A DNA stretch of 64,000 bases from the NCBI RefSeq assembly GCF_019059575.1, contig NW_024883465.1, positions 16,737-80,736 of the forward strand, given 5' to 3'. Origin of the DNA: Amphibalanus amphitrite (taxonomy: Eukaryota > Arthropoda > Thecostraca > Balanomorpha > Balanidae). Both the position numbers and the translations under genes were made by a program. Shown one piece after another: positions 632 to 34,726 of the stretch (positions within the stretch are counted from its first letter, which is position 1; each line of letters opens with the position of its first letter). The notes beneath the pieces were generated by a model that was not told where the DNA came from, did no database searches, and was given only the letters and a program-made list of their open reading frames with translations.

Positions 632-1024
632 TAACGCCGAGTGGCAACTATAGTTGCCAAGTACAAATCTAGTACAAATAACTACAAATGAGTAGAGTGC
701 TTTCAAGTTTTGAGACACTGGTAGCCTGCCTACATCCTTTCTGGATCAAAATAAGCCGAAAATGCTCGGAAATACCGGACACTCTGGAAAAACAGCGTCG
801 TTTTCTTCGGGACCGTCAAGCCAATATGGCGGCCGTCTCTGCAACGTCTGACTATTTCTTGATTTGTGAAGCATGTTGCGCACAGGACGTGACTAAAACC
901 GTCTGATCATGATGAGAAGGGACTATGCTGATTAGGCATCCCACAAATGCTGTTCTGACGTCATTAACTTGCCTTCAGCAGTAGGTTTTTGTAGATGGCA
1001 ACTATAGTTGCCACTCGGCGTTAA
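632..1024. mobile_element. Short inverted-repeat element (TTAA-type MITE)
   Basis: The ends are inverted copies of one another over about 26 bp: TAACGCCGAGTGGCAACT at the left and its complement at the right (about 995-1022). Inside each end is the palindrome GGCAACTATAGTTGCC. The right end lies on TTAA (1021-1024) and the left on CTAA (631-634), probably a mutated TTAA. The size of about 390 bp and the lack of a transposase fit a non-autonomous piggyBac-like element. The TTAA target rule is known for piggyBac; the assignment here is inferred. Confidence 0.7.
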
Positions 1025-2207
1025 CCCGCGACCTGGTGGGGCGGGGGGGCTATTTTTTGCCCCCCCCTCCAGACTTTTCGATATATCTCCAGAACCACTG
1101 CGCCGATCGTCACCAAACTTTCAGTACCCTCCCGGACATCAATTTTACACATTGTGACCAAAAATTTTTCCAAAGGCTATGATAGGTTGGCCGGAAATGA
1201 CGTCAGAGTGACGTCATGTTCTGCCGTTTTCGACCAAAAAAATGGTTTCGCGGGAAGAGCTGTCAGGCCTATAGCTTTGCAAATACAGAAAAATGATACA
1301 GATATAAAAGCTGTAGAATGGACAGGGCTACAAAACTGCTATCTCGGATTTTTGAAATTTTTGGATTTTGACCCCCAAAAATCAAAAAATAGATTTTTTG
1401 AATATAATAGCCAAAAAATCCAAAAAGTTTTTTGAACTTCGAAAAAACCGGAATATATGTGATAGTCCTTACCGCCTTCTATCTGCATACCAAATTTGAG
1501 ATCGATACCTCTTTTTTTGGCCAAGTTATAGCGAAAAAACTGTTCAAAATTGATGACGTCAAATTTTCAAACTCAATTTTCAGCAATTCTAGACCTCGTA
1601 GCGCAAAACAAAGACCACCATTAGACTCCCCGTGACGAGCTGCATCGAATCAATACCCATTTTATGCAAAAATATCAACTTTGAAATTTGACCTTTTTTG
1701 ACCTGACCTTGACCTGACCTTCACCAGAAAGTGACCTAAACCGTACCTGATGGTCTTATAACCAACACCATTGAGTTGGAAATGAAAAACTGGCCATAAA
1801 ACATGCATCGCATAACCTTAGTAAAGTTGGGTTCATGTGGTGACCCTTGGTGACCTTTGGTGACCTGACCTGTGACCTGACCTGGTATGACCAGTGACCT
1901 CTAACAGCAACATATCTACTAGGCAACTGACGCCCTATCGCTGATTCCCGACAAAATGCGTTTTCCTCGGTGTTATAGCGCATTCCCTAGAAGACCCGTG
2001 AACGGTGAAACATTTCATCTTTGACCTGACCTGTGACGTCATCGGTGACCCCAAGGTCAATAATATCCCTCGACAAATTTGACAGGCCTTTCGAACGCCG
2101 TTTGAATTTTTCGGATCCGTCCAGTAGTTTCGGAGATACGAGGGGGGCAAAAAATAGCCCCCCCACCAGGTCGCGTTATAAACAGACCCCACCAGGGCGC
2201 GGGTTAA
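1021..2207. mobile_element. Non-autonomous TTAA element, family A
   Basis: The element starts TTAACCCGCGACCTGGTGGGG and ends with the inverted counterpart CCAGGGCGCGGGTTAA. Just inside each end is a G-run/C-run hairpin whose central word (CTATTTTTTGCC and its complement) matches between the two ends. The interior has no coding capacity but several clusters of TGACCT (about 1690-1735, 1845-1905 and 2020-2055). Four related copies occur in the window, at 16220, 28392, 32510 and 52829. TTAA duplication with CCC-starting termini points to the piggyBac superfamily. Confidence 0.8.
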
Positions 2208-7076: not shown

Positions 7077-9011
7077 TCAGTCGTCATCGCCCGAGGAGTC
7101 GCTGCCACTTGGCATCGGAGATTCTTCTTCCGGTGATGATTCATCTAACGATGGTGTTTCACTCTTGTTTCTCTTAGAGCGCAAACAGAGCACTGCACAG
7201 CATGCACCTAAGATCAGCAGCAGGAGCAGTCCATAGAAGGCGATCGACATCTCGTCACCCTCATCGAGTTTCAGTTTGGACGCTCCCGCGGCGTCGGTCC
7301 CTACCACGGTGGTGTTTCCGTCGGCGGTGCCTGTCCCTGTGGTGTTCGTTGAATCTTTTCCGTCATTGTTTGGCAGCACCTTCAGCTTACTCTGCGGCCT
7401 CGTGACGAACCGCACGTTAAACTGAAGCATCTCGATCATGTATTTGGTGAGCTCGGCGGATTGCAGCCACTGGCCCTGCTTCCCGATGATGACGATGCCG
7501 ATGACGTTCGTCTTGGCCCGCAGCATGAGCGCGTTGGACTTGGGCTCGTTGGTGACGAAGGTTGAAGAGCACTCTGTTCGAATCTTGCCTTGTTCAAAAT
7601 TGCCCCAGTAGAAACGCATGCCATAAATGCAGTCCTCATTAGATATGTGCTCCAAAATGTCAGAAAACTTGTGTCCACTCAGCTTGACCTGGGTTACTGT
7701 TCCTGTCTCAAATACGCTGACAGTGGCTGTGGTAGTTTTATCCGGCCCCTTCAGATACATAGTAGCATATTGGTAAAATTTGAATACTGCGGTACCATAG
7801 TTCTTGTTTTCCAAGTGCATGCCTTTATTCTTGAAATTGTACTGACCGTCGCCGTCTACTTCAATCATCGCTTTGGCTTTGTCTTGTGGAGGGAACATGG
7901 CGCCCTCCACTCCACCCCAAAGTCCGGCTATCATCCGTTCACACAGTGATCCTGTGAATCCCTGCGGGCAGTGGCAGGTGCAACTCTTCTGTACGAAGCC
8001 GAAATTTTTGCATTTTGGTGTTGAGGTACATGAGGCTGACCATTTTTTAATACATCCATATATGGTGTTTATCAAGTAAAGGTCCAGGCTAGACGGAGGA
8101 TACCCGGCGGAAGGCGCATAATCAAGTATGTACTGATACCGGGGGTCTTTTGTAACGAATGCCGCCCGAGAATCTTCATCAGAATAGTCTGCTTCCCCGC
8201 TACCCATGGCTGAGAAATAGTCGTATGGCATAGGTGCACTCGTCTGAAAGCCGTCTGCGTCACATTTACGGCCTTGTAACCATCTGGTTTTCAGAGAGGT
8301 ATCCGGTGACTCCGGGCTGCCCAAAGTAACCTCGTAATTGTGATAATTAACTGTTACAAATTTATCACGATCAGCTCGGCCTACAAGCTCCGCAAAGCCT
8401 AAGGCATGGCCAAACTGTTTGGTTATTTGCCATTTGTCGCAGACTGGTCCAACTATTAGCATCTGGTTGCCCTTTCGCACTGGGAATAGATTACCTACTG
8501 AGGAAGCACAATGATTCTTACCATCATTCGTTAAGCATATGGCGCCGTGAGAGACTCGTCTTACACATCCGCTGTCGGTCATCCTGGTGAACTTGAGGCA
8601 TGTGTGATCGGTCCAGGATTTAATTGACTCTGGCACCAAATTTCCCTGTTGGATTCTGTTTTTGGTGTCAAAATAGTAGAAAACCTCGGCATTTCCGTGG
8701 CCGTCTATCCAGAGCTGCTTCGTGGCGACTGCAATTGTCGGACTGCGCTCCATTGCGTGAGCCAGCTCCGGTAATACCATCGCAGCTGGATAGAGGATGT
8801 CTCCAAGTCGGGCCCATGGCACACCACCCGGGTTTTCGACAACAGCATAGCCATGCTTTCTCAACAGATAGGATATTTCTGCGTTAGTAAAATTTATGAA
8901 CGACCCAAAGAGAGACTTTGTAGTTTCACTGCCGGATAGGGTTACGAATCCCTTCAATAAAGATATTATGTAAACTATCTGAATTAAGTATTGAAACAGA
9001 GACAAAGTCAT
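7077..9011 (-). CDS. Astacin-like membrane protein, catalytically dead (pseudoprotease)
   Basis: This is an intact single-exon gene of 644 residues. In order it has a hydrophobic signal peptide (about 1-25), a propeptide with the astacin-type LGD motif (D71), an astacin-like fold (about 98-320), an EGF-like six-cysteine module (C328-C357), a conserved region of about 170 residues I cannot name, one membrane segment (about 588-610) and an acidic Ser/Asp tail ending SSGDDD. The zinc site is gone. Where the paralogues have HEMGH...GLQH, this protein has KQFGH...GFAE, so two of three histidines and the catalytic glutamate are lost, and the Met-turn tyrosine is replaced (SAMGSG). The frame is otherwise open and well conserved, so it is probably a retained non-enzymatic paralogue (for example a decoy or substrate-binding protein) rather than a decaying gene. 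The function is inferred. Confidence 0.85.
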   Translation of the reverse strand: MTLSLFQYLIQIVYIISLLKGFVTLSGSETTKSLFGSFINFTNAEISYLLRKHGYAVVENPGGVPWARLGDILYPAAMVLPELAHAMERSPTIAVATKQLWIDGHGNAEVFYYFDTKNRIQQGNLVPESIKSWTDHTCLKFTRMTDSGCVRRVSHGAICLTNDGKNHCASSVGNLFPVRKGNQMLIVGPVCDKWQITKQFGHALGFAELVGRADRDKFVTVNYHNYEVTLGSPESPDTSLKTRWLQGRKCDADGFQTSAPMPYDYFSAMGSGEADYSDEDSRAAFVTKDPRYQYILDYAPSAGYPPSSLDLYLINTIYGCIKKWSASCTSTPKCKNFGFVQKSCTCHCPQGFTGSLCERMIAGLWGGVEGAMFPPQDKAKAMIEVDGDGQYNFKNKGMHLENKNYGTAVFKFYQYATMYLKGPDKTTTATVSVFETGTVTQVKLSGHKFSDILEHISNEDCIYGMRFYWGNFEQGKIRTECSSTFVTNEPKSNALMLRAKTNVIGIVIIGKQGQWLQSAELTKYMIEMLQFNVRFVTRPQSKLKVLPNNDGKDSTNTTGTGTADGNTTVVGTDAAGASKLKLDEGDEMSIAFYGLLLLLILGACCAVLCLRSKRNKSETPSLDESSPEEESPMPSGSDSSGDDD

Positions 9012-9107
9012 AGTTTGAAAAATGGTTGGAAGTAGTTTTGGTCGTTTTGGTTGGAAGAGAAAGTTAGAGTAGTACCTTTTACAGGTAAAATGATAATCCT
9101 TGATCTT

Positions 9108-9135
9108 ACGTCACCTGCATTACTTGATTGGCACT
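9108..9135 (-). promoter_or_regulatory. Shared upstream module of the astacin cluster (gene 1)
   Basis: Read on the minus strand, AGTGCC is followed by 11 bases and then GCAGGTGACGT, about 100 bp before the start codon. The same pair with the same 11-base gap precedes the other two intact paralogues. CAGGTG is an E-box core. The element could also be a 3' splice site (GCAG|GTGAC) of a 5' UTR intron. Confidence 0.5.
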
Positions 9136-11996: not shown

Positions 11997-12513
11997 TGAC
12001 AAAAGATCGTAAGACAAAAGATCGTATGGAAAAAGCTCGTAGGAAAATGATCGTAAGATAAGATCGTATGTTGTAAAAGATCGTACGACAAAAGATCGTA
12101 AGCAAAAGATCGTAAAGTAATTGATCGTATGAAAAAGATCGTAGGAAAATGATCGTAAAAGAAAATGATCGTATGTTGTAAAAGATCGTACGACTTAAGA
12201 TCGTAAGCAAAAGATCGTAAAGCAAAGGATCGTATGAAAAAGATCGTTGGAAAATGACCGTAAGATAAATATCGTATGTTGCAAAAGATCGTACGACCTA
12301 AGATCGTAAGCAAAATATCGTTAAGTATGAAAAATCTGTCTTTTTCGCTGATCGTATGAAAAAGACCGTAGGAAAATGATCATAAGAAAAAGATCGTATG
12401 TTGTCAAAGATCGTACGACAAAATATCGTAACGTTACGTTCGTAAAGTAAATAATCGTATAGAATAGTGTTGTAGGTAAATGATTGTAGCATAAAGCCCG
12501 TTAGTCGCATAAT
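11997..12513. repeat. GATCGTA array, left arm
   Basis: The words AAAAGATCGTA, AAATGATCGTA and close variants recur every 12-20 bases for about 500 bp. The inverse array (TACGATC) lies at 13519-13905, so the two form arms of a large inverted repeat around about 1 kb of unrelated DNA. Confidence 0.85.
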
Positions 12514-12734
12514 ATTCTACGAAAAACCGTCATGTGCATGTACTGCTGTGACCTGTGGGGTGCCCCTCGAAGGCATTGATAAATCAATAACAATCCTGTA
12601 GGGGTTGTTTCAAGATTTGCATTTTGCAATCTTGGTTGCGAAATATCGACAACATTTTAGGAGCAAAAGGTGGTGCCGCAGCCTTTTGCTTTTCAGCCCC
12701 CACCCCCTCCCCTACCGAGCGCCGCGAGTGGAAT

Positions 12735-13070
12735 TGCGAGGGACACCACAGGTCTAACAGAGGCACCACAGGCCTGGCAAGGGCATCATCAGCCTCGCAG
12801 GGACACATTGGGACTGTCAGGTGCACCACGTGCCAGTTGGGGGCACTTTAGGCTTGTCACGGGCACCACAGTCCTGTCAGGCTGTCAGAGCCCAAGGGCA
12901 CCAGCGGCCTAGAAGGGGCACCACAGGCCTGCCAGGGGCACCACCACAGGCCTGTAACAGAGGTACCACCGGCCTTGCAAGGGCACAATGGGCCTGCCAG
13001 GGACACCACCAGCCTCTCGTTGGCACTTCAAGCTTGTCAGGAACACTAAAGGCCTGCCAGGACCCATGTG
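12735..13070. repeat. Degenerate GGCACCACAGGCCTG minisatellite
   Basis: Units of about 20-25 bp, close to GGGCACCACAGGCCTGNCAG, repeat imperfectly about a dozen times. The block lies in the loop between the two GATCGTA arms. Reading frames through it are repeat artefacts. Confidence 0.8.
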
Positions 13071-13518
13071 CAAAAAAAAATACTGAAAATAGGGCAACAC
13101 CTAAATGAAGTGGTCGAAACCAAAATTCGAGATCCGTTGAGGTTTTTATTTCGGGTATAGGTAGAGGCACCACTTCGATTCACGACCCTCCCCACGGAGT
13201 TTTCCTGGATACGCCCATACATGCGTGCGTGTGCAGTATGCACCTGTGGGCTTTGGGGTGCCCCTTTGGGGGTGCAGAACCATTATTAGGGATGCAAAAA
13301 TGATATACACATCCACACTCATGTGCTAGAGCCTCAAAGAAAGGAACAGGACAGCTGAGTCCTTTCTGTCAATGCGGAACTTTAAGCATCAGCTATTAGC
13401 CATCGCTCTGAAATAACATCAATGTATGGTCGAGCTTACGACGCCACTTACTACGCGAACGCAGAAATTGATAAGCTTTGTATGCGCTGCAGTTGGGCTG
13501 CACCATGTGAATACCATA

Positions 13519-13905
13519 TTTTGACTGTACGATCTTTATCTCATACGATCATTTTGCGTACGATCATTTACCTCGACGATCTTTTGCGAATACGATCTTT
13601 CGTCCATACGAACATTATACTGTACGATCCTTATCCCATACGATCCTTTGGCATACGATCATTTTCCTTGACGATCTTTTGTGAATACGATCTTTTGTCC
13701 ATACGAGCATTGTGTCATACGATCTTTATCCATTACGACTTTTTGGCATACGATCATTTTCCTTGACGATCTTTAGCGAATACGATCTTTTGTCCACACG
13801 AGCATTATGCCGTACGATCTTTATCAATTACGATCTTTTGCATGCGATCAACTTCCTACGATCTTCTGCCATACGATCTTCTGCTTTACGATCTTTTGTC
13901 CGGTT
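13519..13905. repeat. GATCGTA array, right (inverted) arm
   Basis: TACGATCTTTT, ATACGATCATTTT and similar words recur, the reverse complement of the array at 11997-12513. The outer ends of both arms carry GACAAAAGATCGTAA in inverted orientation, which suggests a foldback-type element. No clear target duplication was found. Confidence 0.85.
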
Positions 13906-16189: not shown

Positions 16190-16308
16190 CGATGTCTGAT
16201 AGGCTACAAGCGTCCTTCATTAATCCGCGCCCCGTTTAGGGGGGGGGGGGGAATCGGACACCCTCTCCTTTTCAGTCGATATCTCCTAAAGTATAGCAGA
16301 TATCGCCA

Positions 16309-16317
16309 CCAAACTAT
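16309..16317. other. 9-bp target-site duplication, left copy
   Basis: CCAAACTAT lies immediately before the left terminal inverted repeat and recurs in direct orientation right after the right terminus at 22769-22777. The other family A copies read CACCAAACT at the corresponding place without the insertion. Confidence 0.8.
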
Positions 16318-16457
16318 ATGTCCGTGAAGTTGGCGACGTCGCCAGCGACTTTTCCAGCGACGAGCACCGATTTTAGCCAAAACCTCGTCCAAGGTCAATT
16401 GGACCATGAGGATCACGAAAATCGAACCCATTCACCCCTAAACCTTGACCTTCAAGG

Positions 16458-18104
16458 TCAAATTCAAGGTCAAAGGACGGGGAACTGAAAAAGTGCCACT
16501 AAATATTGTCTGATTTTCAAAATTTTGGCACCAAAATGTAGCGCGTGCAAAGTTCTAGCCGCACATCGAAAACCATTTTCATCAAGGTCAAACTTCAAGG
16601 TCAAATTCAAGGTCAAAGGACGGGGAACTGAAAAAGTGCCACTAAATATTGTCCGATTTTCAAAATTTTGGCACCAAAATGTAGCGCGTGCAAAGTTCTA
16701 GCCGCACATCGAAAACCATTTTCATCAAGGTCAAACTTCAAGGTCAAATTCAAGGTCAAAGGACGGGGAACTGAAAAAGTGCCACTAAATATTGTCCGAT
16801 TTTCAAAATTTTGGCACCAAAATGTAGCGCGTGCAAAGTTCTAGCCGCACATCGAAAACCATTTTCATCAAGGTCAAACTTCAAGGTCAAATTCAAGGTC
16901 AAAGGACGGGGAACTGAAAAAGTGCCACTAAATATTGTCCGATTTTCAAAATTTTGGCACCAAAATGTAGCGCGTGCAAAGTTGTAGCCGCACATCGAAA
17001 ACCATTTTCATCAAAGTCAAACTTCAAGGTCAAATTCAAGGTCAAAGGACGGGGAACTGAAAAAGTGCCACTAAATATTGTCCGATTTTCACAATTTTGG
17101 CACCAAAATGTAGCGCGTGCAAAGTTGTAGCCGCACATCGAAAACCATTTTCATCAAGGTCAAACTTCAAGGTCAAATTCAAGGTCAAAGGACGGGGAAC
17201 TGAAAAAGTGCCACTAAATATTGTCCGATTTTCAAAATTTTGGCACCAAAATGTAGCGCGTGCAAAGTTCTAGCCGCACATCGAAAACCATTTTCATCAA
17301 GGTCAAACTTCAAGGTCAAATTCAAGGTCAAAGGACGGGGAACTGAAAAAGTGCCACTAAATATTGTCCGATTTTCACAATTTTGGCACCAAAATGTAGC
17401 GCGTGCAAAGTTCTAGCCGCACATCGAAAACCATTTTCATCAAGGTCAAACTTCAAGGTCAAATTCAAGGTCAAAGGACGGGGAACTGAAAAAGTGCCAC
17501 TAAATATTGTCCGATTTTCAAAATTTTGGCACCAAAATGTAGCGCGTGCAAAGTTCTAGCCGCACATCGAAAACCATTTTCATCAAGGTCAAACTTCAAG
17601 GTCAAATTCAAGGTCAAAGGACGGGGAACTGAAAAAGTGCCACTAAATATTGTCCGATTTTCAAAATTTTGGCACCAAAATGTAGCGCGTGCAAAGTTCT
17701 AGCCGCACATCGAAAACCATTTTCATCAAGGTCAAACTTCAAGGTCAAATTCAAGGTCAAAGGACGGGGAACTGAAAAAGTGCCACTAAATATTGTCCGA
17801 TTTTCAAAATTTTGGCACCAAAATGTAGCGCGTGCAAAGTTCTAGCCGCACATCGAAAACCATTTTCATCAAGGTCAAACTTCAAGGTCAAATTCAAGGT
17901 CAAAGGACGGGGAACTGAAAAAGTGCCACTAAATATTGTCCGATTTTCAAAATTTTGGCACCAAAATGTAGCGCGTGCAAAGTTCTAGCCGCACATCGAA
18001 AACCATTTTCATCAAGGTCAAACTTCAAGGTCAAATTCAAGGTCAAAGGACGGGGAACTGAAAAAGTGCCACTAAATATTGTCCGATTTTCAAAATTTTG
18101 GCAC
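16458..18104 (+). repeat. 143-bp satellite, forward arm (12 monomers)
   Basis: The marker GGACGGGGAACTG occurs at 16475, 16618, 16761 and every 143 bp to 18048. Each monomer holds three TCAAGGTCA words spaced 13 and 12 bp apart. Variants are few (for example GTTGTAG for GTTCTAG in two units near 16980 and 17124). Reading frames through it are repeat artefacts. Confidence 0.97.
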
Positions 18105-18114
18105 CAAAAAAAAA

Positions 18115-21100
18115 ATTTGAAAATCGGACAATATTTAGTGGCACTTTTTCAGTTCCCCGTCCTTTGACCTTGAATTTGACCTTGAAGTTTGACCTTGATG
18201 AAAATGGTTTTCGATGTGCGGCTAGAACTTTGCACGCGCTACATTTTGGTGCCAAAATTTTGAAAATCGGACAATATTTAGTGGCACTTTTTCAGTTCCC
18301 CGTCCTTTGACCTTGAATTTGACCTTGAAGTTTGACCTTGATGAAAATGGTTTTCGATGTGCGGCTAGAACTTTGCACGCGCTACATTTTGGTGTCAAAA
18401 TTTTGAAAATCGGACAATATTTAATGGCACTTTTTCAGTTCCCCGTCCTTTGACCTTGAATTTGACCTTGAAGTTTGACCTTGATGAAAATGGTTTTCGA
18501 TGTGCGGCTAGAACTTTGCACGCGCTACATTTTTGTGCCAAAATTTTGAAAATCGGACAATATTTAGTGGCACTTTTTTCAGTTCCCCGTCCTTTGACCT
18601 TGAATTTGACCTTGAAGTTTGACCTTGATGAAAATGGTTTTCGATGTGCGGCTAGAACTTTGCACGCGCTACATTTTGGTGCCAAAATTTTGAAAATCGG
18701 ACAATATTTAGTGGCACTTTTTCAGTTCCCCGTCCTTTGACCTTGAATTTGACCTTGAAGTTTGACCTTGATGAAAATGGTTTTCGATGTGCGGCTAGAA
18801 CTTTGCACGCGCTACATTTTGGTGCCAAAATTTTGAAAATCGGACAATATTTAGTGGCACTTTTTCAGTTCCCCGTCCTTTGACCTTGAATTTGACCTTG
18901 AAGTTTGACCTTGATGAAAATGGTTTTCGATGTGCGGCTAGAACTTTGCACGCGCTACATTTTGGTGCCAAAATTTTGAAAATCGGACAATATTTAGTGG
19001 CACTTTTTCAGTTCCCCGTCCTTTGACCTTGAATTTGACCTTGAAGTTTGACCTTGATGAAAATGGTTTTCGATGTGCGGCTAGAACTTTGCACGCGCTA
19101 CATTTTGGTGCCAAAATTTTGAAAATCAGACAATATTTAGTGGCACTTTTTCAGTTCCCCGTCCTTTGACCTTGAATTTGACCTTGAAGTTTGACCTTGA
19201 TGAAAATGAATTTCGATGTGCGGCTAGAACTTTGCACGCGCTACATTTTGGTGCCAAAATTTTGAAAATCGGACAATAGGCACTATTGTCCGATTTAGTG
19301 GCACTTTTTCAGTTCCCCGTCCTTTGACCTTGAATTTGACCTTGAAGTTTGACCTTGATGAAAATGGTTTTCGATGTGCGGCTAGAACTTTGCACGCGCT
19401 ACATTTTGGTGCCAAAATTTTGAAAATCTGACAATATTTAGTGGCACTTTTTCAGTTCCCCGTCCTTTGACCTTGAATTTGACCTTGAAGTTTGACCTTG
19501 ATGGAAATGGTTTTCGATGTGCGGCTAGAACTTCGCACGCGCTACATTTTGGTGCCAAAATTTTGAAAATCGGACAATACTTAGTGGCACTTTTTCAGTT
19601 CCCCGTCCTTTGACCTTGAATTTGACCTTGATGTTTGACCTTGATGAAAATGGTTTTCGATGTGCGGCTAGAACTTTGCACGCGCTACATTTTGGTGCCA
19701 AAATTGTGAAAATCGGACAATATTTAGTGGCACTTTTTCAGTTCCCCGTCCTTTGACCTTGAATTTGACCTTGAAGTTTGACCTTGATGAAAATGGTTTT
19801 CGATGTGCGGCTAGAACTTTGCACGCGCTACATTTTGGTGCCAAAATTTTGAAAATCGGACAATATTTAGTGGCACTTTTTCAGTTCCCCGTCCTTTGAC
19901 CTTGAATTTGACCTTGAAGTTTGACCTTGATGAAAATGGTTTTCGATGTGCGGCTAGAACTTTGCACGCGCTACATTTTTGTGCCAAAATTTTGAAAATC
20001 GGACAATATTTAGTGGCACTTTTTCAGTTCCCCGTCCTTTGACCTTGAATTTGACCTTGAAGTTTGACTTTGATGAAAATGGTTTTCGATGTGCGGCTAG
20101 AACTTTGCACGCGCTACATTTTGGTGCCAAAATTTTGAAAATCGGACAATATTTAGTGGCACTTTTTCAGTTCCCCGTCCTTTGACCTTGAATTTGACCT
20201 TGAAGTTTGACCTTGATGAAAATGGTTTTCGATGTGCGGCTAGAACTTTGCACGCGCTACATTTTGGTGCCAAAATTTTGAAAATCGGACAATATTTAGT
20301 GGCACTTTTTCAGTTCCCCGTCCTTTGACCTTTAATTTGACCTTGAAGTTTGACCTTGATGAAAATGGTTTTCGATGTGCGGCTAGAAGTTTGCAGGCGC
20401 TACATTTTGGTGCCAAAATTTTGAAAATCGGACAATATTTAGTGGCACTTTTTCAGTTCCCCGTCCTTTGACCTTGAATTTGACCTTGAAGTTTGACCTT
20501 GATGAAAATGGTTTTCGATGTGCGGCTAGAACTTTGCACGCGCTACATTTTGGTGCCAAAATTTTGAAAATCGGACAATATTTAGTGGCACTTTTTCAGT
20601 TCCCCGTCCTTTGACCTTGAATTTGACCTTGAAGTTTGACGTTGATGAAAATGGTTTTCGATGTGCGGCTAGAACTTTGCACGCGCTACATTTTGGTGCC
20701 AAAATTTTGAAAATCGGACAATATTTAGTGGCACTTTTTCAGTTCCCCGTCCTTTGACCTTGAATTTGACCTTGAAGTTTGACCTTGATGAAAATGGTTT
20801 TCGATGTGCGGCTAGAACTTTGCACGCGCTACATTTTGGTGCCAAAATTTTGAAAATCGGACAATATTTAGTGGCACTTTTTCAGTTCCCCGTCCTTTGA
20901 CCTTGAATTTGACCTTGAAGTTTGACCTTGATGAAAATGGTTTTCGATGTGCGGCTAGAACTTTGCACGCGCTACATTTTGGTGCCAAAATTTTGAAAAT
21001 CGGACAATATTTAGTGGCACTTTTTCAGTTCCCCGTCCTTTGACCTTGAATTTGACCTTGAAGTTTGACCTTGATGAAAATGGTTTTCGATGTGCGGCTA

Positions 21101-22631
21101 GAACTTTGCACGCGCTACATTTTGGTGCCAAAATTTTGAAAATCTGACAATATTTAGTGGCACTTTTTCAGTTCCCCGTCCTTTGACCTTGAATTTGACC
21201 TTGAAGTTTGACCTTGATGAAAATGGTTTTCGATGTGCGGCTAGAACTTTGCACGCGCTACATTTTGGTGCCAAAATTTTGAAAATCGGACAATACTTAG
21301 TGGCACTTTTTCAGTTCCCCGTCCTTTGACCTTGAATTTGACCTTGATGTTTGACCTTGATGAAAATGGTTTTCGATGTGCGGCTAGAACTTTGCACGCG
21401 CTACATTTTGGTGCCAAAATTTTGAAAATCGGACAATATTTAGTGGCACTTTTTCAGTTCCCCGTCCTTTGACCTTGAATTTGACCTTGAAGTTTGACCT
21501 TGATGAAAATGGTTTTCGATGTGCGGCTAGAACTTTGCACGCGCTACATTTTTGTGCCCAAATTTTGGAAATCGGACAATATTTAGTGGCACTTTTTCAG
21601 TTCCCCGTCCTTTGACCTTGAATTTGACCTTGAAGTTTGACCTTGATGAAAATGGTTTTCGATGTGCGGCTAGAACTTTGCACGCGCTACATTTTGGTGC
21701 CAAAATTTTGAAAATCGGACAATATTTAGTGGCACTTTTTCAGTTCCCCGTCCTTTGACCTTGAATTTGACCTTGAAGTTTGACCTTGATGAAAATGGTT
21801 TTCGATGTGCGGCTAGAACTTTGCACGCGCTACATTTTGGTGCCAAAATTTTGAAAATCGGACAATATTTAGTGGCACTTTTTCAGTTCCCCGTCCTTTG
21901 ACCTTGAATTTGACCTTGAAGTTTGACCTTGATGAAAATGGTTTTCGATGTGCGGCTAGAACTTTGCACGCGCTACATTTTGGTGCCAAAATTTTGAAAA
22001 TCGGACAATATTTAGTGGCACTTTTTCAGTTCCCCGTCCTTTGACCTTGAATTTGACCTTAAAGTTTGACCTTGATGAAAATGGTTTTCGATGTGCGGCT
22101 AGAACTTTGCACGCGCTACATTTTGGTGCCAAAATTTTGAAAATCGGACAATATTTAGTGGCACTTTTTCAGTTCCCCGTCCTTTGACCTTGAATTTGAC
22201 CTTGAAGTTTGACCTTGATGAAAATGGTTTTCGATGTGCGGCTAGAACTTTGCACGCGCTACATTTTGGTGCCAAAATTTTGAAAATCGGACAATATTTA
22301 GTGGTACTTTTTCAGTTCCCCGTCCTTTGACCTTGAATTTGACCTTGAAGTTTGACCTTGATGAAAATGGTTTTCGATGTGCGGCTAGAACTTTGCACGC
22401 GCTACATTTTGGTGCCAAAATTGTGAAAATCGGACAATATTTAGTGGCACTTTTTCAGTTCCCCGTCCTTTGACCTTGAATTTGACCTTGAAGTTTGACC
22501 TTGATGAAAATGGTTTTCGATGTGCGGCTAGAACTTTGCACGCGCTACATTTTGGTGCCAAAATTTTGAAAATCGGACAATATTTAGTGGCACTTTTTCA
22601 GTTCCCCGTCCTTTGACCTTGAATTTGACCT
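18115..22631 (-). repeat. 143-bp satellite, inverted arm (32 monomers)
   Basis: The complementary marker CAGTTCCCCGTCC recurs at 143-bp steps from 18155 to 22604, with one 144-bp step and one 158-bp step. The latter is a small palindromic duplication near 19278-19292. The junction with the forward arm is an A-run at 18106-18115. Sequence variants shared at exactly 1,716 bp (12 monomers) show internal higher-order duplication. Confidence 0.97.
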
Positions 22632-22768
22632 TGAAGGTCAAGGTTTAGGGGTGAATGGGTTCGATTTTCGTGATCCTCATGGTCCAATTGACCTTGGACG
22701 AGGTTTTGGCTAAAATCGGTGCTCGTCGCTGGAAAAGTCGCTGGCGACGTCGCCAACTTCACGGACAT

Positions 22769-22777
22769 CCAAACTAT
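22769..22777. other. 9-bp target-site duplication, right copy
   Basis: CCAAACTAT directly follows the right terminus and is a direct repeat of 16309-16317. Confidence 0.8.
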
Positions 22778-24078: not shown

Positions 24079-25971
24079 TCAGTCGTCGTCACTACTGGAC
24101 GAGCTGCTTTCCGACTGGGAGCCGAACAGCTTGTCCGCAAGGGTCTGCGGTGTCCGACTCTTCTTCGCGCGCCACCAGCACAGGACCCCGCCGGCAGCCA
24201 GCGTCAACAGCACCACTGGCACGCCGATAATAGCCGCCAGCACCCCTCCGTTTCCGGCCAGGGACTTGGCCGCGGCCACGGCGCTTCCACCTAACACAGG
24301 GTCCTCGGTGGTGGACGCACCGATGACCACTTTGGGGCCACCCTTGGACTGCAGCAGCTTCAACACGCTCTGCGGCCTGGTCAGGAACCACACCCGGAAC
24401 TGAAGCATCTCGATCATCCACTTGGTGAACTCGGCATACGGAAAGAACTCTCCCAGCTTCCCGATGATGACGATGCCGATGACATTCGTCTTGGCCCGCA
24501 GCATGAGCGCGTTGGACTTGGGCTCGTTGTTGATGAATGTGGAGACACATTCAGTGCGAACCCGACCGCTGGCGAAGTCGCCCCAGTAGAAGCGCATTCC
24601 GAACTCACAGTCTCTGGAATCCATGTCCGTGAAGAAGCCAGACACCTGGAACGCCTTCATGGAGTACGACCGAGCCACCTCACCCGGCTCGAACACTCTC
24701 ACGCTGACCATGGTGGTCTTATCCCGTCCCCTGAGGTACATCGTGGCGTACTGGTAGTAGATGAACCTGCTGAGTGGGTAGTTGTTGTTGTTCGTGTGCA
24801 TGCCTCTCTTCTTGAAGTTATAAAAACCGGCCCTGTGGTCGTCAATCACCGCTTTGGCTCTGTCTAAAGGCGGAAACAGCGATCCGTGCTTCTTTTCACA
24901 CCTTGACCCTTGGAAACCTGCAGCACATGCGCATTTACAGTTTTTCTGCAGATATCCGTGATTTTCACACTTCGGAGCTGATTTGCAGGAGGCTGCCCAT
25001 TGCTTGCCGCATTTGTATATCATGTTGATGAGAAGCAGATCATAGTGGGACTGGAGATATCCACCAGATCTTGTGTAGTCAAACATGTACTGGTAGCGGG
25101 GGTCCTTGGCGGCGAAGATCATGCGAGAGTCTCCGTCTCCAAAGTCTGCCTCACCGTACTGCATCACCGACCTGTAGTCGTAGGGGAGTGGCGTAGTCGA
25201 CTGAAAGCCCTGACCCTTCTTACACGCGGCGCCCTGCGACCAGTCTTTTTTCATTGAACTTTCCAAAGACACTTTGCTGTCAAACTTGACCTCAAAGTTT
25301 TCATAGTTGACCGTAATGAAGCTGTCGCGATCGGCACGAGCCATGGTGTGCTGCAAACCTAGCGCGTGACCCATCTCATGAACAGCCGCGTATAGTTCAC
25401 AGCCATCTCCAATTGACATCAGCTGGTAGGCCTTCGTATACGAGAAGATATTGCCGACTGCAGACCAGCAGTTGCCCGTGTTTCGCACACAAACAGCGGC
25501 GTGCGAGGCTTTCTTAGAGCACTCGCCGCTGGGCATCTTAGTGAACGATATGCATGTCGACTTTGACCAGGCGTTAACTGCTTCATCGAACAGCTTCTGG
25601 TTTGCTTTGCTCTTGGAGTCATAGAAGTAGAATACTTCGGCTTTGTCATTCTTATCTAACCATATGTACTTCTGACTGGCTGCCCATGTAGCACCACGTT
25701 CGACTGTTTGAGCCAGTTCCGGTAATACCAACGAGGCTGGATAGACGATGTCGCCAAGTCGTGCCCACGGCGGACTACCAGGATTTTCAACGATATCATA
25801 GCCATGCTGCTCCAATAAAGTGTGTATGTCTCGGTTTGTATGATTTCCAGATTGCTCAAAGTAAGAATAATAGTCTAGGTTTGTGTCCTTCCCGCTCGAT
25901 ATTGCTATCCAAATATTGTTTGTAAACAATAGCCAAAATATCTGTACAAGAAAATAAACGTAGGCATGCAT
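24079..25971 (-). CDS. Astacin-like membrane-anchored metalloprotease
   Basis: This is an intact single-exon gene of 630 residues. It has a signal peptide (about 1-25) and a propeptide with the LGD motif (D74, the position that caps zinc in astacin zymogens). The astacin catalytic domain spans about 99-325, with the zinc motif HEMGHALGLQH (H198, E199, H202, H208), followed by RADRD and a Met-turn SVMQYG (M270, Y272). The usual glutamate after the third histidine is threonine. An EGF-like module follows (C329-C358), then a conserved region of about 170 residues of unknown fold, one membrane segment (about 577-599) and a Ser/Asp cytoplasmic tail (ESSSSSSDDD). All features for catalysis are present, so it is probably an active ectoprotease anchored in the plasma membrane. 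Substrates are unknown. The start is the first ATG before the signal peptide. Confidence 0.88.
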   Translation of the reverse strand: MHAYVYFLVQIFWLLFTNNIWIAISSGKDTNLDYYSYFEQSGNHTNRDIHTLLEQHGYDIVENPGSPPWARLGDIVYPASLVLPELAQTVERGATWAASQKYIWLDKNDKAEVFYFYDSKSKANQKLFDEAVNAWSKSTCISFTKMPSGECSKKASHAAVCVRNTGNCWSAVGNIFSYTKAYQLMSIGDGCELYAAVHEMGHALGLQHTMARADRDSFITVNYENFEVKFDSKVSLESSMKKDWSQGAACKKGQGFQSTTPLPYDYRSVMQYGEADFGDGDSRMIFAAKDPRYQYMFDYTRSGGYLQSHYDLLLINMIYKCGKQWAASCKSAPKCENHGYLQKNCKCACAAGFQGSRCEKKHGSLFPPLDRAKAVIDDHRAGFYNFKKRGMHTNNNNYPLSRFIYYQYATMYLRGRDKTTMVSVRVFEPGEVARSYSMKAFQVSGFFTDMDSRDCEFGMRFYWGDFASGRVRTECVSTFINNEPKSNALMLRAKTNVIGIVIIGKLGEFFPYAEFTKWMIEMLQFRVWFLTRPQSVLKLLQSKGGPKVVIGASTTEDPVLGGSAVAAAKSLAGNGGVLAAIIGVPVVLLTLAAGGVLCWWRAKKSRTPQTLADKLFGSQSESSSSSSDDD

Positions 25972-26011
25972 ACTTTAAAGTCAACAAGACAGTTCCGCTG
26001 TCTACCTTTCT

Positions 26012-27595: not shown

Positions 27596-27837
27596 GATGG
27601 CATGCTGCATAAAAGTAGCCATCATAAAGTGCAGCATCTTTTATTGGTGCTGCACAAAGTAGCTTTGCTGCAATACTTTTCAAATAACACTATACATTCT
27701 TAGGTGTTGTTTTTATCCGCTGGGACTGAGAGCGTGAGATGATGTTTTTCGTACTCCAGCGTAGATGGGTAGCCATACGACTTCCACGGTAGACAGTGAT
27801 GACATCAGTCATCTTTTGCAAGCTCGTTAAAGAATTT

Positions 27838-27909
27838 GGGCTATACGGGGACACGAACCCCGGGCCTTTGGATTAGCGCTCCAATGCTCTACCTCTGAGC
27901 TATACAGAC
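27838..27909 (-). tRNA. tRNA-like sequence, probably a tRNA-derived repeat
   Basis: The minus strand folds as a 72-base cloverleaf. It has a 7-bp acceptor stem with one mismatch and one wobble, a D arm GCTC/GAGC, an anticodon stem TTGGA/TCCAA with 7-base loop GCGCTAA, and a T arm CGGGG/CCCCG with loop TTCGTGT. Position 33 is C instead of the nearly universal U, and the formal anticodon is GCT. That and its place in a tandem repeat argue for a tRNA-derived element rather than a working tRNA. Confidence 0.5.
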
Positions 27910-28092
27910 CAAGTACTTTAACGAGCTTTCTGCCAAGTTTTATGCGGATCATTCTTAGGTGTTGTTTTTATCCGCTGGGACTGAGAGCGTGAGATGATGT
28001 TTTTCGTACTCCAGCGTAGATGGGTAGCCATACGACTTCCACGGTAGACAGTGATGACATCAGTCATCTTTTGCAAGCTCGTTAAAGAATTT

Positions 28093-28164
28093 GGGCTGTA
28101 CGGGGACACGAACCCCGGGCCTTTGGATTAGCGCTCCAATGCTCTACCTCTGAGCTATACAGAC
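28093..28164 (-). tRNA. tRNA-like sequence, second copy
   Basis: It is the same structure as the copy 255 bp to the left, with one base change that turns a G-T pair of the acceptor stem into G-C. The same C33 anomaly is present. Confidence 0.5.
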
Positions 28165-28391
28165 CAAGTACTTTAACGAGCTTTCTGCCAAGTTTTATGC
28201 GGATCATTCTTAGGTGTTGTTTTTATCCGCTGGGACTGAGAGCGTGAGATGATGTTTTTCGTACTCCAGCGTAGATGGGTAGCCATACGACTTCCACGGT
28301 AGACAGTGATGACATCAGTCATCTTTTGCAAGCTCGTTAAAGAATTTGGGCTGTACGAGAGTTTTATCGGACGGAAATGATACACGTTATG

Positions 28392-30211: not shown

Positions 30212-32113
30212 TTAGTCCTCGTCACTAGTATTACTTTCTGAGCTGCTGGAAGAGTCATTTTGAGATGAGGACTGGGGTGCACACTGGTCCTCCGAAGTCT
30301 CGGGTACCAAACTTGTCTTAGTGCGCCACCAGTACAGCGCACCGCCGGCAGCCACGGCCAGCAGCACCACTGGCACGCCGATAGCAGCCGCGAGCACCCC
30401 TCCGCCACCGTCCAGGGCCTTGGCCGCGGCCGCAGCGCCGGCGCCCAGCACCGACTCCTCTGTGGTGGTGGTCGAGCAATTCTTGCAGTGCAGCACCTTC
30501 AGCACACTCTGGGGCCTTCGTAAGAACTGTACGTGAAACTGAAGCTGCTCGACCATGAATTTTGTAAGGTCGATGTTATTGAAGTACTGGCCCAGCCTTC
30601 CGATGATGACAATACCAACGGCATTCGTCTTGGCCCGCAAAATGAGCGCGTTTGACTTGGTCTCGTTGGTGATGAATGAGGAGGCACACTCGGCGCGAAC
30701 CTGGCCACGGGCGTAGTCGCCCCAGTAGAAACGCATTCCCCCGTAACAGTCAGTATAATGGATGTCGCCCAATAAGGAACGCAGTACATATCCCCTCATA
30801 TTTGCTAGAAGCACATGAATTGGTTCAAATACGCTTATACTGACAGTAGTAGTGTTATCCGGCCCTTTCAAGTGCAATGTAGCATATTGGTAATAGACGA
30901 ACGTATTGGAAGGGTAGCTGTTGTTATTCGTGTGCATACCTTTATTCTTGAAATCGTAAGAGCCCTCTTTGCTGTCTTCAATGGTTGCTTTTGCCCTGTC
31001 CAACAGTGGAAACAATGGTCCAATTTTGCGTTCACACCTTGCTCCTTCGTATCCAGGTGCGCATGCGCATTTGCAGTTCTTCTGCAAGTAACCGATATTT
31101 TCGCATTTTGGGGGCGATTCGCACGAAGCTGCCCAATTTTTACTGCATTCATACACTGTATTTATTAAATAGAGGTCATAGTGAGATTGAAGATAGCCAC
31201 CAGATCTCTTATAATCTAGCATGTACTGGTACTCGGGCTCCTTTGTAACGAAAACCGGCCGATAGTCAATATCTCCGAATTCTGCCTCGCCGTAGTGCAT
31301 TAAAGACATATAATCATAGGGAAGGGGCGTGCTGGACTGGTACCCCTGTCCTTCATTGCACCTCTTGGCATTAAGCCAATTTTTCTTAGCTGCAGCTTCC
31401 ATAGATGGCTTAGCGTCAAAATCGATCTTAAAATTTTCATGATTGACCGTTATGAAACTGTCGCGATCAGTGCGAGTCATCATGTGCTCTAAACCTAGAG
31501 CGTGTCCCATTTCATGGGCTGATGAGTATTTATCACAATACTTCCCAATTGACATCTTCTGAGGCCTCTTAGTTTTAGACGAATACACATTGCCGAGCAC
31601 AGACCAACAGGAGCCTTCATTTCGCACGCAGATAGCGGGATGGGACACTTCGTTTGAGCACAGGCCATCGGCCATTTTGGTGAATGTTATACAAGTTGAG
31701 ACTGCCCAAGAATGCACTCCTTTTTCAAAGACCTCTTTGTTCACTTCGGTTTTGGTGTCAAAGAAATAAAACACTTCAGCCTTGCCGCTCTTGTCAATCC
31801 ATCTATAATCCAGTTTGACCATCGACGTGGGACCACGTTCTTCTGTTTGAGCCAGCTGCGGTAACACCACCGACGCTGGATAGACAATGTCGCCAAGTCG
31901 TGCCAATGGTGGACCACCAGGATTTTTGATGACATCATAGCCCTGCTGCTTAATCAAATTTGATATTTCCTGATACGTTAGATTAATGGACGGCTCAGGG
32001 AAAGAAAACTGGCCGGGTTTTATTTCATTTTCAACCGAAAATGATAGCTGGACTATCCATAAAACCGATACGCGAAGTAGCCAATACAAGTGATATACGG
32101 TACACAAATGCAT
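30212..32113 (-). CDS. Astacin-like membrane-anchored metalloprotease
   Basis: This is an intact single-exon gene of 633 residues. It has a hydrophobic N-terminus (about 1-26), a propeptide with LGD (D75), and a catalytic domain with HEMGHALGLEH (H200, E201, H204, H210), TRTDRD and a canonical Met-turn SLMHYG (M272, Y274). These are followed by an EGF-like module (C331-C360), the cluster's conserved 170-residue region, a membrane segment (about 573-595) and a tail rich in Ser and acid residues ending SNTSDED. Compared with the gene at 24079 it keeps the more typical Met-turn SxMHY. It should be an active membrane protease; the substrate is unknown. Signal peptides, layout and lack of introns are shared by all three paralogues, so duplication followed loss of introns or retrotransposition of an ancestor (inference). 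Confidence 0.88.
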   Translation of the reverse strand: MHLCTVYHLYWLLRVSVLWIVQLSFSVENEIKPGQFSFPEPSINLTYQEISNLIKQQGYDVIKNPGGPPLARLGDIVYPASVVLPQLAQTEERGPTSMVKLDYRWIDKSGKAEVFYFFDTKTEVNKEVFEKGVHSWAVSTCITFTKMADGLCSNEVSHPAICVRNEGSCWSVLGNVYSSKTKRPQKMSIGKYCDKYSSAHEMGHALGLEHMMTRTDRDSFITVNHENFKIDFDAKPSMEAAAKKNWLNAKRCNEGQGYQSSTPLPYDYMSLMHYGEAEFGDIDYRPVFVTKEPEYQYMLDYKRSGGYLQSHYDLYLINTVYECSKNWAASCESPPKCENIGYLQKNCKCACAPGYEGARCERKIGPLFPLLDRAKATIEDSKEGSYDFKNKGMHTNNNSYPSNTFVYYQYATLHLKGPDNTTTVSISVFEPIHVLLANMRGYVLRSLLGDIHYTDCYGGMRFYWGDYARGQVRAECASSFITNETKSNALILRAKTNAVGIVIIGRLGQYFNNIDLTKFMVEQLQFHVQFLRRPQSVLKVLHCKNCSTTTTEESVLGAGAAAAAKALDGGGGVLAAAIGVPVVLLAVAAGGALYWWRTKTSLVPETSEDQCAPQSSSQNDSSSSSESNTSDED

Positions 32114-32180
32114 AATCTAGGTGCATAATCAACAAATAGTTCGCAGCTTTTTGAACGGTGAAAACGTAATTTACACTTCA

Positions 32181-33929: not shown

Positions 33930-34244
33930 TGCTAAGATTTGACCTAGGCCAGTTAATTCTACAACTTTTATGTCAGAACATTTTTATGCTTCTACAGCTC
34001 TGTTGGCCTGACAGCTCTTCCTGCGAAACCTTTTTTGGGTCGAAAATGGCAGACCATGACGTCATTCTGACGTCATTTGCGGCCAACCCATCATAGCCTC
34101 TGGAAAAATTGCTCACAACGTTTAAAATGGATGCCCGGACAGGTCCTGAATTTTGGTGGCGATATTTGCAGTCATTTAGGAGATAGCTACAGAAGAGGAC
34201 AGGGGACCATTTTGCCCCCCCCCTTTCTACGAGGCGCGGGTTAA
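33930..34244. mobile_element. Right end of a truncated family A element
   Basis: The sequence matches the complement of the family's left interior (GACGTCATTCTGACGTCATT, GGCCAACCCATCATAGCC). It ends with a C-run and GAGGCGCGGGTTAA at 34244. No left terminus exists, so this is a fragment. Confidence 0.65.
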
Positions 34245-34726
34245 CGTCCTTTCAACTCAGGCTACAAGGGCCCTTTTTCCACTTAGGGGCCCTTTCAACC
34301 CACTCAGCCAAGGGCCCTTTTGACTGCGGACCCCCCCCCCCCGAGAGAAATCCTAGATACGCCACTGATGCCATTTGTATCATAAACTGATTAAAACATG
34401 GCATTTGTGTTATTTACTTTCTAATTGACTGTAATTGAAGTCTTTTCACTCACTTTTATGATTATTTTGTGTTCTGTGTAATGCTATCTGAGTGATCCGT
34501 TGCCATAGTCTGCTGGGTCCTATATTCCTGGCTGTATATGCATTTATGGTTGTGAAGTTTGATTAACTTCAACTGTTGCCTTATGGGGGCCTTTTTGAGG
34601 CATCTGACCTGACCTGGAAAGTCACATGATGATGTACCTAAACTGATAGAATATTGATCTAAAATATTTCATTTATGTGCAAGATCACATTTGTGCTCGT
34701 TTTTATGATAAGTTATGCTTTATCAA
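34245..34726. other. Intergenic region, nothing recognised
   Basis: It has a short CCCTTTT-rich repeat near 34268-34322 and a C-run; the rest is AT-rich. No gene is supported. Confidence 0.5.

Follow-up and report, generated by a model that had tools for sequence, protein, structure and literature searches.

The window (the whole 64,000-nucleotide stretch of Amphibalanus amphitrite DNA that was analysed) carries a 6451-bp palindromic element at positions 16318-22768, which very probably (a probability of about 0.85) belongs to a family of non-autonomous foldback DNA transposons whose body is a palindromic satellite array and which is moved in trans by a transposase of a type that leaves 9-bp target-site duplications (TSDs), as in Mutator or Rehavkus. 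A preliminary description of the same DNA had given exactly these coordinates and had read the element as a foldback-like transposon, and this reading is now supported by the TSDs, by further copies of differing length and by the separate insertion sites of these copies.

Structure of the window element and its insertion site

The element is built from a forward and an inverted array of 143-bp units, termed A monomers, which meet at a palindrome centre and are closed at each outer end by a terminal module, termed T (Table 1). The 12 forward and 32 inverted monomers of the preliminary description were recovered if the partial monomers at the centre are counted, as was its claim that a unique core is absent, since only 0.1% of the element is left uncovered when it is tiled with three units; the array units are all of the A type, with no B units (see below). 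Two of its statements were right in part. The terminal inverted repeats, described as perfect over 140 bp, are perfect, but this perfection extends over 193 bp and, after one mismatch, resumes to 345 bp. Similarly, the element was said to consist entirely of satellite arrays, and this holds for the missing core but not for the ends, each of which is a 133-bp module that, judged by its sequence, is a unit distinct from the monomer. When T and the 143-bp monomer were compared directly, the best exact match was 9 bp (CAAGGTCAA-type), beyond which there were a few imperfect matches of 11-13 bp. Folding of the central 421 bp as single-stranded DNA gave z = -43.5. At 19265-19300, in the inverted array, a short piece of adjacent monomer sequence seems to have been inserted in reverse orientation, as in templated repair, and one monomer of this array has 89% identity to the query.

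Table 1. Positions of features in the window.
Feature	Position	Strand	Remarks
Left 9-bp TSD, CCAAACTAT	16309..16317	+	sequence match
Left terminal module T, 133 bp	16318..16450	+	in the 19 copies read, outer 12-15 bp present at the ends only
Forward array of 143-bp A monomers	16450..18109	+	n = 12, including partial last monomer
Palindrome centre, one-base spacer	18110..18110	.	monomer broken at position 87, inverted monomer at 77
Inverted array of 143-bp A monomers	18111..22636	-	n = 32, including partial first monomer
Right terminal module T	22636..22768	-	identical to left T
Right 9-bp TSD, CCAAACTAT	22769..22777	+	
Paralogous empty site	33930..34275	-	alignment; dispersed-repeat copy without the element, colinear with joined flanks
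Second paralogous empty site	1000..1390	+	alignment
Three astacin-type metalloprotease genes	7077-9110, 24079-25974, 30212-32116 (minus)		one long open frame each

The 9-bp direct duplication reported at the two outer junctions is exact. On the plus strand, CCAAACTAT occurs twice in the window, both times at the edges of the element, and its reverse complement is found at two further sites (36202 and 56907). The host of the insertion is an older dispersed repeat, and when the flanks are joined with a single copy of the TSD they align to both empty sites in Table 1 without interruption at the insertion point. The identity between these sites and the joined flanks is ~74-76%, which marks them as paralogues and not alleles.

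Several other features of the window were noted. A second fold-back-like structure occupies 11998-13900, with GATCGTA-type tandem repeats at ~12000-12490, their inverted form at ~13527-13900, a core of ~1 kb and no target duplication that is clear by eye. A 255-bp unit is tandemly repeated at 27695-28357 (2.6 copies at 99%), where tRNA-Ser(gct) was predicted twice. The sequence TCAAGGTCA, which corresponds to the extended half-site to which nuclear receptors bind as monomers, is present about three times in most monomers, giving 125 occurrences in the element, and outside it 9 were observed with 0.55 expected, where AGGTCA is also over-represented 3.5 times (97 vs 27 expected). An Rfam search of window positions 16200-17000 returned no match at E values up to 1, and an RNA motif in the monomer was rejected on this ground.

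Copies, insertion sites and palindrome centres in the genome

The search space was the genome from which the window comes (807.6 Mb in 2644 contigs). A 143-base terminal query returned 692 candidates, 40 of which were scored, each with 100% identity, while a terminus pattern of 26 bases, allowing up to two mismatches, was found at 138 places (71 forward and 67 reverse; 0 in the reversed control), so the other copies that the preliminary description had suggested looking for are indeed present. The 100 termini that were listed, all with zero mismatches and on contigs up to C957, comprise 40 inverted pairs, spaced by 3.1-57 kb with a median of 8.5 kb, and 20 single ends. The partners of the single ends may be among ends that are unlisted, mismatched or lost, and the 57-kb pair, on C121, may represent two elements.

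Nineteen distinct complete elements were read, including that of the window, with copies being drawn from the scored list only, so that the sample is biased to intact ends; one locus (L032) has one end only. Long terminal inverted repeats of tandem units are present in all 19, with arms of 1.7-13 kb, and monomer number varies from copy to copy, as had been anticipated, giving elements of 4.3-19.4 kb. In 18 of them the order is end module, forward units, inverted units and end module, with untiled gaps of no more than 14 bases. The exception (C1070:104133-123532; L016 and L017) has two inserts nested in its arrays, one of 6.7 kb that is LTR-like, with the same two frames recurring ~5.6 kb apart near both ends, and one of 1.8 kb with short inverted ends (by eye).

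As predicted for a foldback element with TSDs of ~9 bp, the copies have duplications of their own, and these are exact in 17 of the 19 complete elements, with 17 different sequences and no fixed base at any position. At the remaining two, 8 of the 9 bases match (C1070) or there is no matching TSD (C627, L028). The chance of a 9-bp match abutting both ends is 4^-9 per element. The body of 143-bp tandem repeats would suit an ordinary satellite array that was inverted mid-way and is bordered by a duplication arising by chance, but this is extremely improbable, because the 17 exact TSDs rule it out unless the contigs are wrong, and because empty sites exist, near-identical arrays are found at different sites and the elements account for the monomer total.

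Movement of whole arrays is suggested by comparison of individual copies. The elements on C773 and C35 lie at separate sites with different TSDs and share 99.74% identity over 7.3 kb, and their lengths differ by 573 bp, or about four monomers (4 x 143 = 572). Those on C575 and C331, each 8536 bp long, share 99.6% identity over 6.65 kb, and the 151 edits separating them over the full 8536 bp are due to a different unit order near one end. A common centre at a different site is what transposition predicts, and three of the 14 distinct centre junctions among the 19 copies occur more than once, two of them in three copies each and the third in a pair of copies in mirror orientation. The C1123 copy is broken at the same positions as the C575 group but with a small insertion, and the count of distinct centres may accordingly be 13. 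With this many distinct centres, the centre must have been re-made repeatedly, which we infer to be the outcome of breakage and end-joining at the palindrome. As far as the sequences allow this to be judged, these are products of transposition, and not the event itself, that are seen.

Hairpin adapters that go undetected are a known source of palindromic reads, and the preliminary description had named an assembly artefact behind the inversion as something that would refute its reading. An artefact of assembly or of long reads is highly unlikely. Such an artefact would mirror the flanks as well, and the flanks here differ; the arms are unequal (for example, 1792 and 4658 bp) and differ in unit order; and the same centre is found at several insertion sites. 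In addition, one insertion is present on two contigs, C1123 and C127, with the same TSD, near-identical flanks and elements that are 99.90% identical over 10 kb, this agreement being between assembled contigs rather than raw reads. From its sequence this pair looks like two haplotypes of one insertion, and its second contig was left out of the 19; the assembly probably keeps both haplotypes in places.

Array units, terminal tip and extent of the satellite

In addition to the 143-bp A unit, most copies contain a 162-bp B unit, the first 50 bp of which are 90% identical to A while the remainder matches the end module from position 16 onward. In the copies compared for this purpose, internal end-like modules number 128, with the match beginning at position 16 in 116, at 19 in 10 and at 21 in two, and in none of the 128 does the alignment include the outer 15 bp. 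The outer 15 bases of the terminus, and even the outer 12, are absent from the interior of all 19 elements, and hence in the copies read the tip is restricted to the ends. The exact outer 12 bases are also found at window positions 24623-24634, within an astacin frame, where 0.01 occurrences are expected in the window; this match is probably a coincidence.

The 143-bp unit forms a homogeneous monomer in long tandem arrays, as does satellite DNA. Mean monomer identity within an element is 96.5-99.1% (16 elements), and the means within an arm, between arms and between elements are all 97.4-97.7% (pairs below 85% were dropped in each case), which indicates that there is no strong local homogenisation. 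The window element is an exception, at 99.1% within itself.

A monomer pattern of 25 bases, with up to two mismatches, had 3575 matches in the genome and none in the control. The 19 elements contain 933 monomers, or 49.1 each, and if every monomer were in an element, 69 elements (138 ends / 2) would hold 3388. The ratio of found to predicted, 1.06, is approximate, being affected by single ends, haplotype duplicates, a sample of well-preserved copies, diverged monomers and unassembled heterochromatin, and it means that few monomers are needed outside elements in the assembly; no free-standing satellite blocks are required to account for the 3575 assembled monomers. Among the matches listed (contigs C4, C5, C12 and C13), monomer places are in or beside elements with a listed terminus. 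In this assembly, with unassembled DNA being outside its scope, the satellite is therefore nearly coextensive with the transposon.

A true satellite captured by a transposon, with free arrays also existing elsewhere, would explain why the terminal module and the A monomer are largely unrelated, and such arrays could lie in unassembled heterochromatin or be composed of monomers with more than two mismatches in the 25-base pattern, which go uncounted. Capture is nevertheless distinctly unlikely given the agreement between the monomers found and those predicted inside elements, and given that the monomers on the four contigs named above are in or next to elements. It can tentatively be suggested, at rather less than even odds, that the satellite exists solely in the form of a transposon. 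The mobile unit would then be the array itself, the B units would be subterminal docking copies that lack the 15-bp cleavage cap, and the array library would be maintained by transposition of whole palindromes and not by heterochromatic expansion. If true, this would be the opposite of the usual course, in which satellites arise by escape from transposons.

Transposase and comparison with known systems

The class of the mover is deduced from the length of the TSD. Mutator/MULE elements have TSDs of 8-11 bp, a range that includes the 9 bp found here, while those of Galileo, of the P superfamily, are ~7 bp and so differ from it. A 9-bp TSD is consistent with both Mutator and Rehavkus in the accessible text of PMC6446971 and PMC3169594, with the table rows of the former giving 9-11 bp for Mutator/MULE. 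Since foldback structure arose in more than one superfamily, according to the accessible part of PMC4079207, assignment to Mutator or Rehavkus is only tentative. That the family belongs to another superfamily and is moved by a Galileo/P-type or an unknown transposase accords with the evolution of this structure in several superfamilies (PMC4079207, PMC3169594, as far as accessible) and with the failure to find a MULE-bearing copy (92 MULE places compared with 100 listed termini). Against this, the 9-bp TSD fits Mutator and Rehavkus in what is accessible of PMC6446971, which makes a different superfamily rather unlikely.

A genome search with the MULE profile PF10551 gave 130 matches, several multi-copy families among them, or 122 places once eight second-exon rows of loci already counted were dropped. 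Of the 92 places on C1-C957, none lies closer than 60 kb to any of the 100 listed termini (of 138), and none of the other 30, on higher contigs, is on the six higher contigs with a known terminus. Two MULE loci considered as possible partners (L034 and L035) had no matching ends: nothing in them matched the units at E values up to 0.1, and inverted pairs in the portion that was read did not exceed 33 bp. L035 is one copy of a possibly recently active MULE family with eight equal-scoring two-exon copies (on C47, C165, C238, C333, C626, C736, C1612 and C1740). Among the copies read and the listed termini checked, no element combining these ends with a transposase gene was found. An autonomous core in the 19.4-kb C1070 copy was rejected, as its two later inserts have the LTR-like structure and the short inverted ends noted above and the longest listed frame is 147 aa, and the case for a core in the 26.9-kb pair on C13 was weakened by a 3-kb sample near its middle consisting of A and B units only.

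In the preferred reading, that of a non-autonomous foldback family, an autonomous element with 9-bp TSDs, of the Mutator/MULE or Rehavkus type, would provide the transposase in trans, and this enzyme would recognise the ends. As the terminal 15 bp are kept by the outermost modules alone, cutting would be confined to these and the whole array would move as a single piece by cut-and-paste. The subterminal sequence in internal B units might provide extra docking sites, similar to those proposed for Galileo (see below). Unequal exchange or slippage would add or remove whole monomers, and breakage followed by end-joining would occasionally create a new palindrome centre. The dispersal of satellite arrays is a long-standing question, the answer to which can in this family be read from TSDs, shared centres and length differences of whole monomers between copies. 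The family also constitutes a natural series of kb-scale palindromes at known sites, in which palindrome stability, revision of the centre and ectopic recombination could be studied within an animal genome.

Drosophila Foldback (FB) elements resemble the present family in having long inverted repeats of tandem units and 9-bp TSDs, and differ, when compared by description and not by sequence, in that their units are tens of bp long rather than a satellite-like 143 bp. Literature searches, with most subscription papers outside their reach, found no account of the present satellite-foldback family, including in the accessible parts of two reviews (PMC12628747, PMC9659126). The following comparisons are likewise with the accessible portions of the papers cited. 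Tm1 of root-knot nematodes has foldback-like composite TIRs and TSDs of 8-10 bp, mostly 9 bp, in 45 of 53 complete copies, but its internal motif is ~14 bp, its elements are ~1-2.5 kb with cores, and in one known copy a MULE transposase is encoded (PMC3169594). Rehavkus, compared by description only, shares arthropod (and annelid) hosts, the 9-bp TSD and a minisatellite before the 3' TIR, and differs in its PHD-finger transposase and TIR of 26-400 bp (PMC6446971). Galileo is foldback-like with a variable number of tandem repeats in its TIRs and with proposed secondary transposase binding sites, but belongs to the P superfamily, and its repeats, of ~210 bp, number up to three in the F group (PMC3573991). 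The nearest described case is Tetris of Drosophila virilis, also a non-autonomous foldback element, with TSDs of 8-10 bp, no autonomous partner found and TIRs with ~220-bp tandem repeats that form satellite arrays as well (PMC4079207). Tetris has inner and middle domains in addition to a flanking domain of up to 866 bp, and is represented by three complete copies with TIRs of up to 1735 bp (PMC4079207), compared with the 19 copies read here and their arms of 1.7-13 kb; its repeats seeded satellite arrays (PMC4079207), whereas the assembled satellite described here stays inside mobile copies. What is new relative to Tetris is the lack of a middle domain, the multi-kb arms and a satellite that in the assembly is confined to mobile copies.
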